Origin: a virus
DNA length: 33,854 nucleotides
Virus record (IMG/VR): IMGVR_UViG_3300048925_000246
Coordinates: 1-33,854 of that record
Reading direction: 5' to 3' (one strand)
The position numbers and the translations under genes are program-made. The stretch's first letter is position 1. Every line of letters begins with the position of its first letter. The notes beneath the pieces are model-generated. The model had not been told where the DNA came from and did not search any database. It was given only the letters and a program-made list of their open reading frames with translations. Positions 153 through 33,854 of this stretch are shown here, one piece after another.

Positions 153-315
153 GTGTGTTACCTCGGGGGTGGTTCCAGGCGATCTCGACGTGGGTGCGTA
201 CCAGCTCGCGTAGGTGCTCCGGTACTTCTGCCAGCGCGGCGATGCGTTCCTCACGGGTTCGCATCGCCGTGATCTGGCGGGCGTACTGGCGCGGCCAGTC
301 TTCGGGCTGTCTCAT
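133..315 (-). CDS. Small phage protein, unknown function (60 aa)
   Basis: A short charged protein beginning MRQPEDWPRQYARQI, with an Arg/Glu-rich centre and a helical ELVRTHVEIAW segment. It resembles small uncharacterised proteins common in Pseudomonas phage early operons (DUF7696-like), but I recall the family only loosely. Its ATG overlaps the stop codon of the upstream antirepressor-like gene by one base, and its end overlaps the next gene, so all are probably translationally coupled. No function can be assigned. Because its low-complexity Arg/Glu composition could favour chance frames, support comes mainly from gene packing. Confidence 0.65.
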   Translation of the reverse strand: MRQPEDWPRQYARQITAMRTREERIAALAEVPEHLRELVRTHVEIAWNHPRGNTHGPQTD

Positions 316-605
316 TACGCGACTTCTCGCGGGTCGGTTACGGCAGGTGGGGCTGGGCGCTCAATACCGATCTGCCCGGCCAGCCAGGAAATGCCAATAT
401 CGGTCACGCGCGTTGTGCGCTTGTATTGCATGCCGAGCCTCTCGTGAAACCAGCGGCTCTCGCGAGTAACTAGAAAGTCTTTGGTTGCGGCGGGGTTAGC
501 TGGCAGGTTTTTTTTATCCAGAAGACCTTTGTCGCGCATGCGTTTCATCAACTCGCGGTGACCCAAACCTAGGCGCTCGGCTGCGCGTTTGAGGGATAGG
601 CTCAT
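315..605 (-). CDS. KilAC-type phage antirepressor-like protein (96 aa)
   Basis: The protein starts MSLSLKRAAERLGLGHRELM and continues with a lysine-rich turn and a C-terminal part containing RESRWFHERLG and TDIGISWLAGQIG. This order (winged-helix-like opening, then a conserved aromatic strand and a closing 'G..WL...' motif) is typical of the KilAC/ANT C-terminal domain of phage antirepressors. Here it stands alone, without the usual N-terminal BRO or Rha domain. The start has a GAGGTG Shine-Dalgarno 7 nt upstream. By family analogy it may bind DNA or oppose the CI-like repressor encoded upstream. That role is inference; the domain assignment is fairly good. Confidence 0.7.
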   Translation of the reverse strand: MSLSLKRAAERLGLGHRELMKRMRDKGLLDKKNLPANPAATKDFLVTRESRWFHERLGMQYKRTTRVTDIGISWLAGQIGIERPAPPAVTDPREVA

Positions 606-614
606 GGCGGCACC

Positions 615-1175
615 TCATGCGGCGGCTGCGAGGCTATTGCGGTAGCCCTGCAGGAACTGGTTGAGGTTTTCAGCCAAGATTGCGTAGGCGTGCTGGTTAT
701 CGGCGGGCAGGGTGAGCACGCAGCCGGCGTCGTCGATTTCGAGCTTAACGATGTAGCCGCCGCGTGGGTTGCGCTGGATTTGTACAGAGGGTTCCAGTTC
801 GTCAGCGATCAGATGGTAAATGCCGCGCCCACGTCGGATTGCCAGACGTAGGGTGGCTTCTATATCACTGACAGCCTCATGTTCGTCTACGTCAGGCACG
901 CCGGTAGGGCTGCGGCCATTGGCGATACCTTCGATAAAGCTCGCTACGCGCGTGGCGTTGTTTTTGCGGTGCTTATCGAGGGTGACTGAGGTATTGCGCG
1001 TCCCGCAGATGCGCACCATTACCGTGATGCCATCGGTGCATTGCTCGATCTCGACCTGGGCCGCTACGAAGTGGCGATCATCACGCGAGTGCAGGGTGTG
1101 ATTGAAGGTTCCGCTGAGGTGCACCTGAGCCTGGAGGCGGATATAGGCGGCAGCGTTGAGAGATAGCCTGTTCAT
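615..1175 (-). CDS. Phage early protein, unknown function (186 aa)
   Basis: I chose the ATG at 1175 over a more distal in-frame start because GGAGG lies 9 nt upstream and because the ATG overlaps the stop of a 56-residue gene (ATGA). The protein begins MNRLSLNAAAYIRLQAQVHL. Its first half looks beta-rich and alternates polar and hydrophobic residues. The second half contains VDEHEAVSDIE, a basic RLAIRRGRG stretch and a final helical segment ending in an Ala run. No catalytic motif is apparent and I do not recognise the family. It lies inside the leftward early operon between the switch and the antirepressor-like gene, so a role in early takeover or regulation is possible but unproven. Confidence 0.75.
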   Translation of the reverse strand: MNRLSLNAAAYIRLQAQVHLSGTFNHTLHSRDDRHFVAAQVEIEQCTDGITVMVRICGTRNTSVTLDKHRKNNATRVASFIEGIANGRSPTGVPDVDEHEAVSDIEATLRLAIRRGRGIYHLIADELEPSVQIQRNPRGGYIVKLEIDDAGCVLTLPADNQHAYAILAENLNQFLQGYRNSLAAAA

Positions 1176-1342
1176 GCTGCACGCCCTCCATCGTCTGGAT
1201 TGAAGGGGGTTGGCGTTGGGCTGGTGGTTGATTTGCGTTTGGTGGGGGCGAAGGCGCAGCCGTGGATTATTGCTAGGCGGCGCACCTCGAAAACGCGGCT
1301 TTCTGGGCACGTTGGTAGGACGTGCAACGTTGCGGTTTGCAT
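1172..1342 (-). CDS. Small phage early protein (56 aa), first gene of leftward operon
   Basis: This short frame encodes a protein starting MQTATLHVLPTCPESRVF and ending in a Thr/Pro-rich tail. Its TGA overlaps the ATG of the next gene (ATGA), and GAGG lies 9 nt before its own ATG; both support real translation. It is the first gene behind the operator-controlled leftward promoter at 1379-1407. Small proteins of this look are common at this place in Pseudomonas phages, but no function is known to me. A competing, longer in-frame extension of the downstream gene covers the same DNA in another frame; coupling and ribosome-binding sites favour two genes. Confidence 0.6.
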   Translation of the reverse strand: MQTATLHVLPTCPESRVFEVRRLAIIHGCAFAPTKRKSTTSPTPTPFNPDDGGRAA

Positions 1343-1378
1343 GGGAATTGCCTCGCTCTGTGGTAGGAGAGTGAGGCA

Positions 1379-1407
1379 AAATTAGCAACAGCTAATTTTT
1401 TATGCAA
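1379..1407 (-). promoter_or_regulatory. Leftward early promoter (PL-like)
   Basis: On the minus strand, TTGCAT (1402-1407) is followed after 17 bp by TAATTT (1379-1384). The spacer contains a perfect operator palindrome. The two hexamers match consensus only moderately, but the layout is the same, base for base, as the rightward promoter beyond the repressor gene (TTGCGT, 17 bp, TAATCT, same operator position). It would transcribe the operon from the 56-residue gene to the left edge, separately from repressor transcription. Confidence 0.6.
1381..1396. promoter_or_regulatory. Operator OL1: perfect palindrome ATTAGC-N4-GCTAAT
   Basis: The 16-mer ATTAGCAACAGCTAAT has 6-bp perfect arms around a 4-bp centre. 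It overlaps the -10 element of the leftward promoter, so bound repressor or Cro would block RNA polymerase. The same consensus occurs at 2248-2263. Confidence 0.75.
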
Positions 1408-1421
1408 TAGCAAATGCTAAA
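1406..1421. promoter_or_regulatory. Operator OL2: near-palindrome, same consensus
   Basis: AATAGCAAATGCTAAA matches the operator consensus ATTAGC-N4-GCTAAT at 5 of 6 positions in each arm. Its edge overlaps the -35 of the leftward promoter. Its centre lies 25 bp from OL1, the same distance as between OR1 and OR2 on the other side of the repressor gene. Confidence 0.7.
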
Positions 1422-1422
1422 A

Positions 1423-2187
1423 TTAAATGTCGATGTATTTTGACGACTTCAAGATTGCGGCCACGTAGTGGACTTTTTCGACGAGATGCTCATCCAAAAA
1501 GATCGGAGGATAGCCGTCGCTAATGCTGTCGAATCTATATTGTCCGTCCCGGAGGTAAATGAACTCCTTGACCATAGACCTGCCATCCGTTGTTTTTACG
1601 AGCACCTCGTCGCCGGTCTGATAGCGATGATTTGGTTCAATAAGAACAAACTCCCCGCTTTTGATGCGTGGGTGCATGCTGCTACCCACCATTTTGAGGC
1701 CATAGGCGTCGGGGTCGGAGCTGACTATATCTATGTAGCCATCACCATGTCCGGCTGGGTAGTCAAGCGCGTCAAAGTAACCATCAGATCCCAGCATAGC
1801 TTTACCTACTACGGGCACCGGTGCTGCCTGGCGGTTCTTAGCGGACCACTCCCTTTCCTCGGCAGCACGTTGGGCGGTTTCGTTGATCGCTGCGTTGAAA
1901 AACGCGGGATGGGGAAGTGTTGGCGGTTTGAGGTCAAGTGCTAGCCATTTTGCCGTTATGCGGTTCTGGTCTGCTGCAGAGTAATTGCCTGTTGTTAGGA
2001 GTTCTGCTGGAACAGCTAATTTTTTAGCAAGATTCATCGCAGCGCGATCCCCTAGCGTCCGATGACCGTTAAGGATCTGCGAAAGATAGGAGGCGTCAAC
2101 ATCGGTATGAGCTCCTGCAAAATCCTTCAGCTGGTTTTCACCAATGAGGGCCTTGAGGATCGTTAAGCGTTTTTCGTAAATATCCAT
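1423..2187 (-). CDS. CI-like phage repressor, HTH plus S24 peptidase-like domain
   Basis: This 254-residue protein should maintain lysogeny. Residues about 5-65 form an HTH_3-like fold (LKDFAGAHTDVDASYLSQILNG is the recognition region). Residues about 125-245 are a LexA/S24 domain with the Ser motif VGSSMHPR (Ser170) and the Lys motif SMVKEF (Lys207). The usual cleavage dipeptide Ala-Gly or Cys-Gly is not obvious; the expected region reads GKAMLGSDG (Leu-Gly at about 132-133). No Shine-Dalgarno precedes the ATG. A possible -10 (TAGATA, 2200-2205) would start transcription only a few bases upstream, as in leaderless lambda cI mRNA. It is divergent from cro, with operators between them and a second operator pair just behind its stop codon. 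Confidence 0.9.
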   Translation of the reverse strand: MDIYEKRLTILKALIGENQLKDFAGAHTDVDASYLSQILNGHRTLGDRAAMNLAKKLAVPAELLTTGNYSAADQNRITAKWLALDLKPPTLPHPAFFNAAINETAQRAAEEREWSAKNRQAAPVPVVGKAMLGSDGYFDALDYPAGHGDGYIDIVSSDPDAYGLKMVGSSMHPRIKSGEFVLIEPNHRYQTGDEVLVKTTDGRSMVKEFIYLRDGQYRFDSISDGYPPIFLDEHLVEKVHYVAAILKSSKYIDI

Positions 2188-2207
2188 AGATAAATCATGT
2201 ATCTAGC

Positions 2208-2223
2208 GTTAGCAGCTTGTAAA
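2208..2223. promoter_or_regulatory. Operator OR3 (degenerate), next to repressor promoter
   Basis: GTTAGCAGCTTGTAAA matches one arm of the consensus at 5 of 6 positions and the other at only 3 of 6. It abuts OR2 and lies just upstream of the proposed -10 for the repressor gene, where a weak site would allow autoregulation in the manner of lambda OR3. The match is poor, so this call is tentative. Confidence 0.4.
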
Positions 2224-2238
2224 TTACGTTCTGCTATT
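2223..2238. promoter_or_regulatory. Operator OR2
   Basis: ATTACGTTCTGCTATT matches the arms ATTAGC and GCTAAT at 4 of 6 and 5 of 6 positions. Its last two bases are the first two of the rightward -35 hexamer, exactly as OL2 overlaps the leftward -35. Centre-to-centre distance to OR1 is 25 bp. Confidence 0.6.
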
Positions 2239-2265
2239 GCGTGGCGGATTAGCGTTTGCTAATCT
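2237..2265 (+). promoter_or_regulatory. Rightward early promoter (PR-like)
   Basis: TTGCGT (2237-2242) and TAATCT (2260-2265) are separated by 17 bp that contain OR1, whose final TAAT forms the start of the -10. It would drive cro and the rightward early genes. The 20-bp leader leaves room for the strong GGAGGTG ribosome-binding site of cro. Confidence 0.6.
2248..2263. promoter_or_regulatory. Operator OR1: perfect palindrome ATTAGC-N4-GCTAAT
   Basis: ATTAGCGTTTGCTAAT has perfect 6-bp arms and overlaps the -10 of the rightward promoter. It has the same arms as OL1 and differs only in the 4-bp centre. Confidence 0.75.
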
Positions 2266-2287
2266 CGTGGTTGTTCTGGAGGTGAAC

Positions 2288-2548
2288 ATGACTCTACTCG
2301 ACTACCTAAAGAGTTTGGATGCGGCGCAGCTCGAAGCATTTGCCGCTTGCTGTGGCACATCGGCAGGACAGCTTAAGCAAATTGCCTATGGTAATCGTCG
2401 ATCCAATGCGGGTCTCGCAATTGCTATTGATAGGCAGACCACAGGTCAAGTCACTTGCGAATCGTTACGTCCGGATATCGATTGGGAGTATTTGCGAATG
2501 CAGGTAAATACAGCAGTTGTTGCGGATGCCTCAGCTCAAGCGGCTTAG
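2288..2548 (+). CDS. Cro-like HTH transcriptional regulator
   Basis: The start at 2288 is preceded by GGAGGTG 3-4 nt upstream, much better than the alternative start 51 bp earlier, which lies inside the operator region. The 86-residue product begins MTLLDYLKSLDAAQLEAF and contains a compact helix-turn-helix (CCGTSAGQLKQIAYGNRRSN) of the YdaS/Cro type, followed by a short PDIDWEYL segment. Being divergent from the repressor gene and directly behind the operators fits a Cro that represses repressor synthesis and early promoters. It is the first gene of the rightward early transcript. Confidence 0.85.
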   Translation: MTLLDYLKSLDAAQLEAFAACCGTSAGQLKQIAYGNRRSNAGLAIAIDRQTTGQVTCESLRPDIDWEYLRMQVNTAVVADASAQAA

Positions 2549-2572
2549 AAAAAAGGCGACCGAAAGGCCGCC
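2549..2572 (-). terminator. Minus-strand intrinsic terminator converging on cro
   Basis: Read on the minus strand this is GGCGGCC, loop TTTC, GGTCGCC (one G-U pair), then six T residues. Read on the plus strand the stem has an A-C mismatch and no T run follows, so it works only for leftward transcription. No protein gene is seen on that strand here, which points to an untranslated leftward RNA from the region to the right. Confidence 0.65.
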
Positions 2573-2821
2573 CAGTTCCTCCCGATACACACCACCACAG
2601 TGCTGTCGGGTCGCGATAAAGGTAGGCGGGCAAACCACATGCAAACCGCTTCCCTCTATCGCGCAACCAAGGCACGGATGCCTTGGGTTGCCTGCTAACC
2701 CACCACGGTCTGCAGGCTGTAACGGCAAGGCACATGCAGAGCGTGTGCCTTGCCATTGGGGTGCAGCCGGACTTCCTACCACAGAGCAACCGGCTGCATG
2801 CGACCACTTGTGAGTGACCAC
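2549..2821 (-). ncRNA. Candidate structured antisense RNA between cro and the cII-like gene
   Basis: No convincing gene occurs here, but stems are unusually dense: CCCGA/TCGGG (2581-2610), CGCGATA/TATCGCG enclosing GCGG/CCGC (2612-2663), a 12-bp stem with one bulge (2663-2691), an 11-bp perfect stem GGCAAGGCACA/TGTGCCTTGCC (2724-2754), and a 9-bp perfect stem TGCAGCCGG/CCGGCTGCA (2762-2798). A minus-strand promoter candidate sits at 2828-2856 and a minus-strand terminator at 2549-2572, giving a predicted RNA of about 270 nt. Phage precedents are lambda OOP and the C4/CI antisense RNAs of P1/P4; I cannot verify kinship. The stems could also act in the plus-strand leader of the cII-like gene. 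Confidence 0.4.
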
Positions 2822-2827
2822 GGCACA

Positions 2828-2856
2828 ACTGTATCAAACAGGCGTGCGGCGGTCAC
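2828..2856 (-). promoter_or_regulatory. Candidate leftward promoter between cro and cII-like gene
   Basis: On the minus strand GTGACC (2851-2856), a 17-bp spacer and TACAGT (2828-2833) match sigma-70 hexamers at four of six positions each. Transcription would start near 2821. In lambda the equivalent place holds PRE, the CII-activated leftward promoter; here transcription would stop at 2549 before reaching the repressor gene. Confidence 0.35.
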
Positions 2857-2880
2857 TGGCAGAGTTTTTGGAGTTTTGCC

Positions 2881-3390
2881 ATGAACCGTAAACAGTTCAA
2901 TTCCATTGAGCGCGCACGGCGTTCGCTGTTGACCCTACCGCAAGCTTTGCTCCACGCGGCACGTGATTATCCTGGCGGTGCCACTGCTATTGCCGCTATC
3001 GACGGCGGCAACGCCACTACCCTTAATCATAAGCTGAGCCTGACCAACACCAGCCACACGCCCAATATCGGCGATCTTGAATTGGTGCTGGATGCAACGC
3101 GCGATCCGCGCATTGTAGATGCGTTGTTGCATCCCATTGGCTGGGTGGGTATCGACGTTTCCGAGTTGAGCGACACCGACACGGCGCAGTCGCTGATGGC
3201 AAGCATTGGCGAGTTGCTTTCTCGTGAGGGAGAGTTGGCCACGCATGTATCGGCTTCATTGACTGATGACAAATTGGACGATGCCGAACTGGCCGAGTTT
3301 GAGCTGCTGGCTGAGCGCATGGTGCAGGCTGTATTCAAGTTGCGCGCGGTGCTCCGCAAGATGCATGCGGAGGATCTGACTTATGTCTGA
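2881..3390 (+). CDS. Phage regulatory CII-family protein (CP76-like)
   Basis: The 169-residue protein starts MNRKQFNSIERARRSLL and contains the family signature: a helix AARDYPGGATAIA, then NATTLNHKLSLTNTSHTPNIGDLE, typical of the phage regulatory CII (CP76) family, in which this region forms a lambda-repressor-like DNA-binding fold. The C-terminal half is acidic and helical and probably oligomerises. Known relatives control the choice between lysis and lysogeny. A GGAG lies 8 nt before the ATG. It is the first gene after the hairpin-rich leader and overlaps the next gene by 8 bp. The leftward promoter just upstream (2828-2856) would be an attractive target; that is inference. Confidence 0.85.
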   Translation: MNRKQFNSIERARRSLLTLPQALLHAARDYPGGATAIAAIDGGNATTLNHKLSLTNTSHTPNIGDLELVLDATRDPRIVDALLHPIGWVGIDVSELSDTDTAQSLMASIGELLSREGELATHVSASLTDDKLDDAELAEFELLAERMVQAVFKLRAVLRKMHAEDLTYV

Positions 3391-33733: not shown

Positions 33734-33770
33734 TGGTGGAGCCGGGGGGATTTGAACCCCCGTCCGCCAG
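33734..33770. other. Probable attachment site region (attR/attL core in tmRNA 3' end)
   Basis: Phage-type genes lie downstream of the tmRNA 3' end and the 3' end is complete, as expected where an integrating phage supplies a copy of the tRNA-like part. No second copy of this segment is visible in the window; it should be at the other prophage end, left of position 1. The exact core length is unknown. Confidence 0.5.
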
Positions 33771-33854
33771 TACTCCGCTGTCGGTACTACATGCGTAGCC
33801 GTTTCTATTAAGTTAACCCTCAGCGACCCGAAGGGCAGGGTGCTTTGGGCGAGT
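33734..33854 (-). ncRNA. ssrA: tmRNA, 3' portion (runs off right edge)
   Basis: The minus strand ends in GGGGGTTCAAATCCCCCC, then GGCTCCACCA, the T-arm and acceptor stem with encoded CCA of tmRNA. Further upstream comes the Pseudomonas-type run AACTTAATAGAAACGGCTACGC preceded by a pseudoknot-like CCTGCCCTTCGGGTCGCTGAGG segment. The tag-peptide frame and 5' half lie beyond the window. tmRNA rescues stalled ribosomes. It is a frequent integration target, and here its 3' end appears intact, as needed for function after integration. Confidence 0.93.

Follow-up and report, generated by a model that had tools for sequence, protein, structure and literature searches.

The intergenic gap between the cro-like and cII-like genes of a Pseudomonas-type temperate phage record (33,854 nt, referred to here in its entirety as the window) is predicted to encode, on its minus strand, an antisense RNA of approximately 273 nt with two seeds and more than one target, which probably represses translation of the leftward (pL) operon in trans. 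Computation identified a promoter, a terminator, a conserved fold and complementarity to the targets that covaries between phages. A preliminary description of the same DNA had proposed a structured, terminated leftward RNA, and this part stands, but its view of the RNA as a cis-antisense regulator is incomplete, as the stronger signal is trans pairing with the pL mRNA. The additions made here are this trans target and the prediction that the RNA switches genes off.

The 332-bp gap (2549–2880) is flanked by early genes transcribed in both directions. The genes relevant to the argument are:

315–605, minus strand: KilAC-domain gene in the leftward operon, apart from the matched genes
1172–1342, minus strand: first gene of the leftward (pL) operon, 56 aa, PHROG 35204, the proposed sRNA target
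1423–2187, minus strand: CI-like repressor, peptidase S24
2288–2548, plus strand: Cro-like regulator of the YdaS family
2881–3390, plus strand: CII-like regulator (Phage_CP76, PHROG 101), whose leader is the sense strand of the predicted sRNA

A 186-aa gene, also leftward, lies beside the 56-aa gene, and a DksA-like gene and a primase/helicase are listed after the CP76 gene. The first pL gene and its homologues (PHROG 35204/13491) encode a small conserved protein with the pattern ..LHxHPxC..ELRRAA..DPNDGGRAA. The 3′ part of a tmRNA is found at the right end of the window (33734–33854, minus strand), suggesting that the prophage is probably integrated in ssrA.

The predicted sRNA and its signals map as follows:

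2549–2821, minus strand: predicted antisense sRNA, ~273 nt, defined by promoter, terminator, fold (z = −6.1) and covariation
2851–2856, minus strand: promoter −35 hexamer GTGACC, conserved in related loci
2828–2836, minus strand: extended −10 element TGA-TACAGT, with the −10 hexamer at 2833–2828 and a 17-nt spacer to the −35
2549–2572, minus strand: intrinsic terminator GGCGGCC-TTTC-GGTCGCC-TTTTTT (7-bp stem 2555–2561/2566–2572, GAAA/TTTC loop, T6)

The RNA would start near 2821 and end in the U-run at 2554–2549. The leftward promoter GTGACC-17-TACAGT at 2856–2828, first proposed in the preliminary description, is present and conserved in relatives; what had been overlooked is the extended −10 (TGA before TACAGT), whose TGN is kept in relatives with A, G or C as N. 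With 8 of 12 matches, this promoter is missed by a consensus scanner used on its own; it rises above chance because the same arrangement is conserved at homologous places. At 4 of 6 matches the −35 is poor, and an activator may therefore be required. The promoter is enclosed by a structurally conserved inverted repeat, AGTGACC..GGTCACT (2813–2857), which is a possible operator for the CP76/CII-like protein or another regulator. At the cro end, the minus-strand terminator was correctly placed before: seven pairs including one G–U, followed by T6 (A6 on the plus strand at 2549–2554), directly adjoining the cro stop codon. The expected RNA of about 270 nt, antisense to the leader between cro and the cII-like gene, is thus predicted as 273 nt between a conserved promoter and terminator. 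Judged from sequence, a functional minus-strand RNA very likely exists.

The minimum free energy structure of the gap is, on either strand, a string of about eight hairpins, with z-scores of −6.5 (plus strand) and −6.1 (minus strand) and no shuffle equally good, in agreement with the stem-packed gap noted earlier. Protein coding by the open reading frames in the gap (96, 98 and 128 aa) was ruled out by frame-breaking indels: in alignment A2, 62 of the 68 pairwise indels have a length not divisible by three, and we therefore regard the gap as non-coding. In phage Haddon, CDS0011 (L215 4013–4153), annotated as a hypothetical protein, falls within the RNA array and probably does not represent a genuine gene. 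A conserved hairpin with a CGGA tetraloop (GGCACGGATGCC, 2667–2687, plus strand) resembles an RsmA/CsrA site.

Homologues of the CP76 protein led to 31 viral loci and 8 loci in Pseudomonas genomes, to which pattern searches added more; a bare 14-mer search of viral contigs returned mostly chance matches. Relatives of the gap are found in dozens of Pseudomonas prophages, ranging from more than 90% identity to families in which only modules are recognisable. Nearly all tabulated array loci carry GTGACC or TTGGCC exactly 17 nt from TAYAGT, five loci of P. aeruginosa type carry GTGCCA-18-TAGAGT, and two (L163 and L249) have a variant promoter. The spacers differ at most positions, save TTGN beside the −10, and this preservation of hexamers and spacing while the spacer drifts indicates a promoter under selection. 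The T6 terminator is kept in the lineages of the window, L148, L207, L247 and L150, where stem changes compensate each other, and is absent from the P. aeruginosa-type lineage (L214–L216 and others) and from mosaics such as L121.

Covariation of the stems had been set beforehand as the test on which the structured RNA could fail. In minus-strand alignments, both-sided changes were found in 8 of 40 pairs (alignment A1) and 16 of 61 pairs (A2), compared with shuffle averages of 2.2 and 6.8; none of 500 shuffles reaches the observed values, and structures slid along the alignment as a control give 0–4 both-sided pairs.

Two groups of loci differ at the 3′ end of the array. In one (L121, L123, L124, L126–L128, L131–L136 and L153), cro and the 3′ third of the sRNA have been exchanged as a mosaic with loss of T6; a weaker hairpin at the cro end may replace the lost terminator in L121-type mosaics. 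The other (L214–L216 and L218–L258, P. aeruginosa type; for example L214 3940–4216) keeps array and targets, uses the promoter GTGCCA-18-TGT-TAGAGT, and has no leftward terminator ahead of cro and cI; by its sequence, this RNA may continue into cI in the manner of a PRE transcript.

The principal target is the leader of the pL mRNA. The elements involved are:

2774–2787, minus strand: sRNA seed 1, GCUCUGUGGUAGGA, located in a hairpin loop; its complement is in the pL leader, with 16 pairs in total over 1353–1368
2638–2649, minus strand: sRNA seed 2, GCGGUUUGCAUG, the complement of the region around the first pL gene's start codon
1379–1407, minus strand: predicted pL promoter TTGCAT-17-TAATTT, among operator-like TTAGC-N-GCTAA repeats, its position conserved in relatives
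1343–1372, minus strand: 5′ leader of the pL mRNA, with predicted +1 near 1372 and Shine-Dalgarno GAGG at 1354–1351
1353–1368, minus strand: target site 1, UCCUACCACAGAGCGA, overlapping the first Shine-Dalgarno bases
1332–1343, minus strand: target site 2, CAUGCAAACCGC, covering the start codon (1342–1340) and codons 2–4

The 14-mer TCCTACCACAGAGC occurs twice in the window, in the gap at 2774–2787 (plus strand) and at 1355–1368 (minus strand), where 0.13 occurrences are expected allowing up to two mismatches. A second shared sequence, CATGCAAACCGC, lies at 2638–2649 (plus strand) and 1332–1343 (minus strand). Of the minus-strand copies, one falls in the opening ~20 nt of the predicted pL mRNA and the other at the first gene's start codon, so that the sRNA is complementary to both; its loop is perfectly complementary over 14–16 nt to the 5′ end of the mRNA. 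Long bulged duplexes dominated a plain RNAduplex scan, which placed the best pL-leader window at about the 110th rank and was uninformative. We turned instead to contiguous helices, searched for on both strands over the entire window with correction for accessibility. The pL leader ranks first among 8,346 candidates, at −18.65 kcal/mol versus −10.52 kcal/mol for the next. The same scan in 15 other loci placed the pL leader first in 12, second in two and fifth in one (L163). In the distant Stutzerimonas phage PG1, which has a different loop sequence, leader loop and start codon take ranks 1 and 2 of 745. Joint folding of the sRNA with the pL leader of the window gains 17.5 kcal/mol, with the pairing passing through the Shine-Dalgarno sequence.

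The copies of leader and start region held in the array covary with their targets: TCCTACCACAGAGC and CATGCAAACCGC in the window are replaced by CTCTCCACCACAGAG and CACCATGCAA in P. aeruginosa phages and by ACCCACTTACCAC and TGGACACAGCA in PG1. Within the window's own lineage, the seed-1 match falls to 9–11 nt in several members. The pL promoters and operators vary between lineages while the target at the mRNA 5′ end stays constant, which makes selection on the RNA likely. The target also lies within a DNA palindrome, TTGCCTC..GAGGCAA (1348–1380 in the window, and in homologous leaders), that covaries in relatives; its outer arms are upstream of the predicted +1, so part of this element may work as DNA.

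A second target is apparent in relatives, matched by a further seed:

2630–2641, minus strand: sRNA seed 3, CAUGUGGUUUGC, in relatives complementary to the RBS-AUG (GGAGCAAACCACATG) of a second pL-operon gene

In L125, whose array is 99.4% identical to that of the window, and in other loci, the loop GCAAACCACATG is a copy of GGAGCAAACCACATG, the RBS-AUG of a gene (PHROG 28176/28364) that lies ~2 kb farther along the leftward operon and whose product has an N-terminal hydrophobic stretch. In L249, both the loop and the RBS-AUG of the second gene read GCACACCACATG, a co-change relative to GCAAACCACATG. Other lineages match the second-gene leader with other sequences, namely ACCACCATGCA (L214), GACCACCTTGCA (L207), and RCCACCTGAC together with a CCACCAC-loop hairpin (L148 and L150). 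When arrays and targets were compared across lineages in a matrix, the own second target scored best in five of six lineages and second in the other (binomial P ~7e-4, an approximate value because the rows are lineages sharing ancestry); for first-gene leaders, the matching blocks are CTACCAC-type, CCACCAC-type and PG1. A search of the record itself gave no match to the second target gene, whose expected place is left of base 1.

These observations suggest a mechanism in which the minus strand of the gap would be transcribed from its own sigma-70 promoter to the intrinsic terminator, yielding a small RNA. Its hairpin-loop seed (..CUCUGUGGURG..) would pair with the pL mRNA over its initial ~20 nt, as far as and into the Shine-Dalgarno sequence, and a second seed with the start codon of the first gene and/or the RBS-AUG of a second gene farther downstream. 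Pairing at these positions predicts translational repression: pL-gene translation would be blocked in the lysogen and whenever pL leaks, forming a second layer beneath CI, and the paired mRNA would probably be degraded. During lytic transcription, the rightward (pR) transcript across the gap should quench the sRNA, because it is its perfect complement. We regard trans-antisense action on the pL operon as likely, and, given such action, repression rather than activation is strongly expected.

The wobble test is compatible with this arrangement. GT:AC counts are 21:20 in helices within the sRNA and 19:7 in plus-only helices, which fits transcription of both strands only within the sRNA; taken alone, the test gives no strand preference inside it. 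The gap shows that one intergenic DNA can be under selection on both strands. Beyond the sRNA promoter on its right-hand side, the arrays of L143–L147, L150, L158 and L195–L206 carry additional plus-strand hairpins whose 7-nt loop is exactly CCACCAC, together with a second GACCACCTGAC near the cII-like start; group 3 (L150 and its relatives) has both, and GACCACCUGAC ranks first in the L150 target scan. The extra loops and the GACCACCTGAC copy could serve as decoys, or else as a third target, within the leader of the cII-like gene. More tentatively, and with somewhat less than even confidence, we envisage an undescribed family of phage antisense RNAs with captured RBS copies of several early genes, acting as an RNA-level switch: the sRNA would silence pL genes, the pR transcript (with decoy loops in some lineages) would titrate the sRNA, and loop divergence would set immunity specificity.

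The shared 14-mer was read at first as a pair of nut/put-like sense sites, a reading that was dropped because start-codon and RBS copies co-change and there is no boxA. In its general form, this explanation holds that a protein of the phage or of the host binds the CCACCAC/CTACCAC loops on the sense strand of the two early transcripts, for antitermination of the nut/put kind or for translational repression, with the minus strand irrelevant. The motif is indeed found in the sense of both early transcripts, placed like nutL and nutR; the exact loop CCACCAC recurs in hairpins with unrelated stems; and the plus-only extra copies of group 3 and the G–U preference of plus-only helices (19:7) would fit such sites. 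However, a protein would have no need for start-codon and RBS sequences that are gene-specific, copied and co-changing, the promoter and terminator conserved on the minus strand are left unexplained, and no boxA with one mismatch or fewer occurs anywhere in the window, making protein sites improbable.

We also doubt that leftward transcription only dampens the cro–cII-like leader, by antisense pairing or interference in cis similar to OOP or aQ, with the pL match incidental. The RNA is necessarily a perfect complement of the pR transcript and sits between cro and the cII-like gene, but the top-ranked, covarying matches to the pL leader and the second gene in many lineages would have no explanation. 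A PRE-like leftward promoter activated by a CII-type protein, with the array as the 5′ leader of the cI transcript and the terminator as an attenuator, would account for the weak −35, the lambda PRE position, the adjoining CP76 protein and the P. aeruginosa lineage without a leftward terminator before cro and cI. Yet the strong T6 terminator of most lineages halts transcription ahead of cro, and target copying is again unexplained; this possibility appears very improbable.

Repression of the pL operon by an antisense RNA would be of interest since the known examples of early phage genes controlled by RNA are a few enterobacterial ones (C4, P4 CI, sar and OOP). The predicted sRNA would add a separate case that is widespread among temperate phages of Pseudomonas, the P. 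aeruginosa phages LPPA36, Haddon and vB_Pae_U5 included. Its target predictions covary at the level of base pairs, are amenable to simple reporter fusions, and provide a first handle on the conserved, uncharacterised first genes of the pL operon. No Rfam family matched the element, and no account of the RNA appears in the titles and abstracts listed by literature searches on Pseudomonas prophage sRNAs and antisense RNAs, although a description elsewhere is possible; the one Pseudomonas phage RNA mentioned in a review of phage sRNAs is PAK_P4as15, which is antisense to an endolysin gene.

Among known phage RNAs, C4, which RNase P releases from a longer transcript as an RNA of ~77 nt, carries two recognition elements: one blocks the ribosome-binding site, and the other, upstream, confers specificity (PMC5320573). 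It provides second-layer control under a protein repressor, and its gene belongs to the very operon under its control (PMC8198154). As in C4 of P1/P7, there are two recognition elements here, one of them at the RBS, and small changes in the loops would set specificity. Seed 1 extends into the Shine-Dalgarno sequence and seed 2 covers the AUG, and likewise in PG1. Unlike C4, the predicted sRNA has its own promoter and terminator opposite pR, separate from pL, adopts a different fold, and would target another transcript and more than one gene; the matched genes are PHROG 35204/13491 and those for proteins with N-terminal hydrophobic stretches, whereas C4 targets the antirepressor ant. The preliminary description had guessed at kinship with C4 and suggested an Infernal search against the Rfam model (RF01695). 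The analogy is apt, but the covariance model gave no gathering-level hit in the window, and none up to E = 10 in window 1300–2900 or L150 3300–5050.

P4 CI RNA arises by processing of the early leader; by pairing with seqA and seqC, which lie up- and downstream of CI, it causes transcription termination (PMC4825925). The likeness lies in control of early phage genes by an RNA through short complementary sites; unlike the RNA proposed here, P4 CI acts within its own transcript. Lambda nut and HK022 put are related RNA elements present in both early transcripts, after pL and after cro; nut consists of boxA plus boxB, and put RNA acts in cis to render RNA polymerase resistant to terminators. The shared sequence of the window differs from nut in lacking boxA, in including gene-specific start codons and in sitting on the Shine-Dalgarno sequence.

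The sar RNA of P22 is 68/69 nt long and has a single target, ant. Lambda OOP and aQ act on the overlapping transcript, and we know of no pL-operon trans target for either. As a small antisense RNA, sar pairs with an early-control mRNA and blocks its synthesis; both sar and OOP are smaller than the predicted sRNA, each described with one phage target (PMC12197685). OOP and aQ are transcribed leftward, in antisense to early genes of the rightward operon, at or close to cII and Q (PMC12197685). The earlier comparison with OOP and PRE holds for position, and for position only. Like OOP, the RNA predicted here is leftward, has its own promoter and terminator, and lies at the cII region, its overlap being with the leader rather than the coding end.
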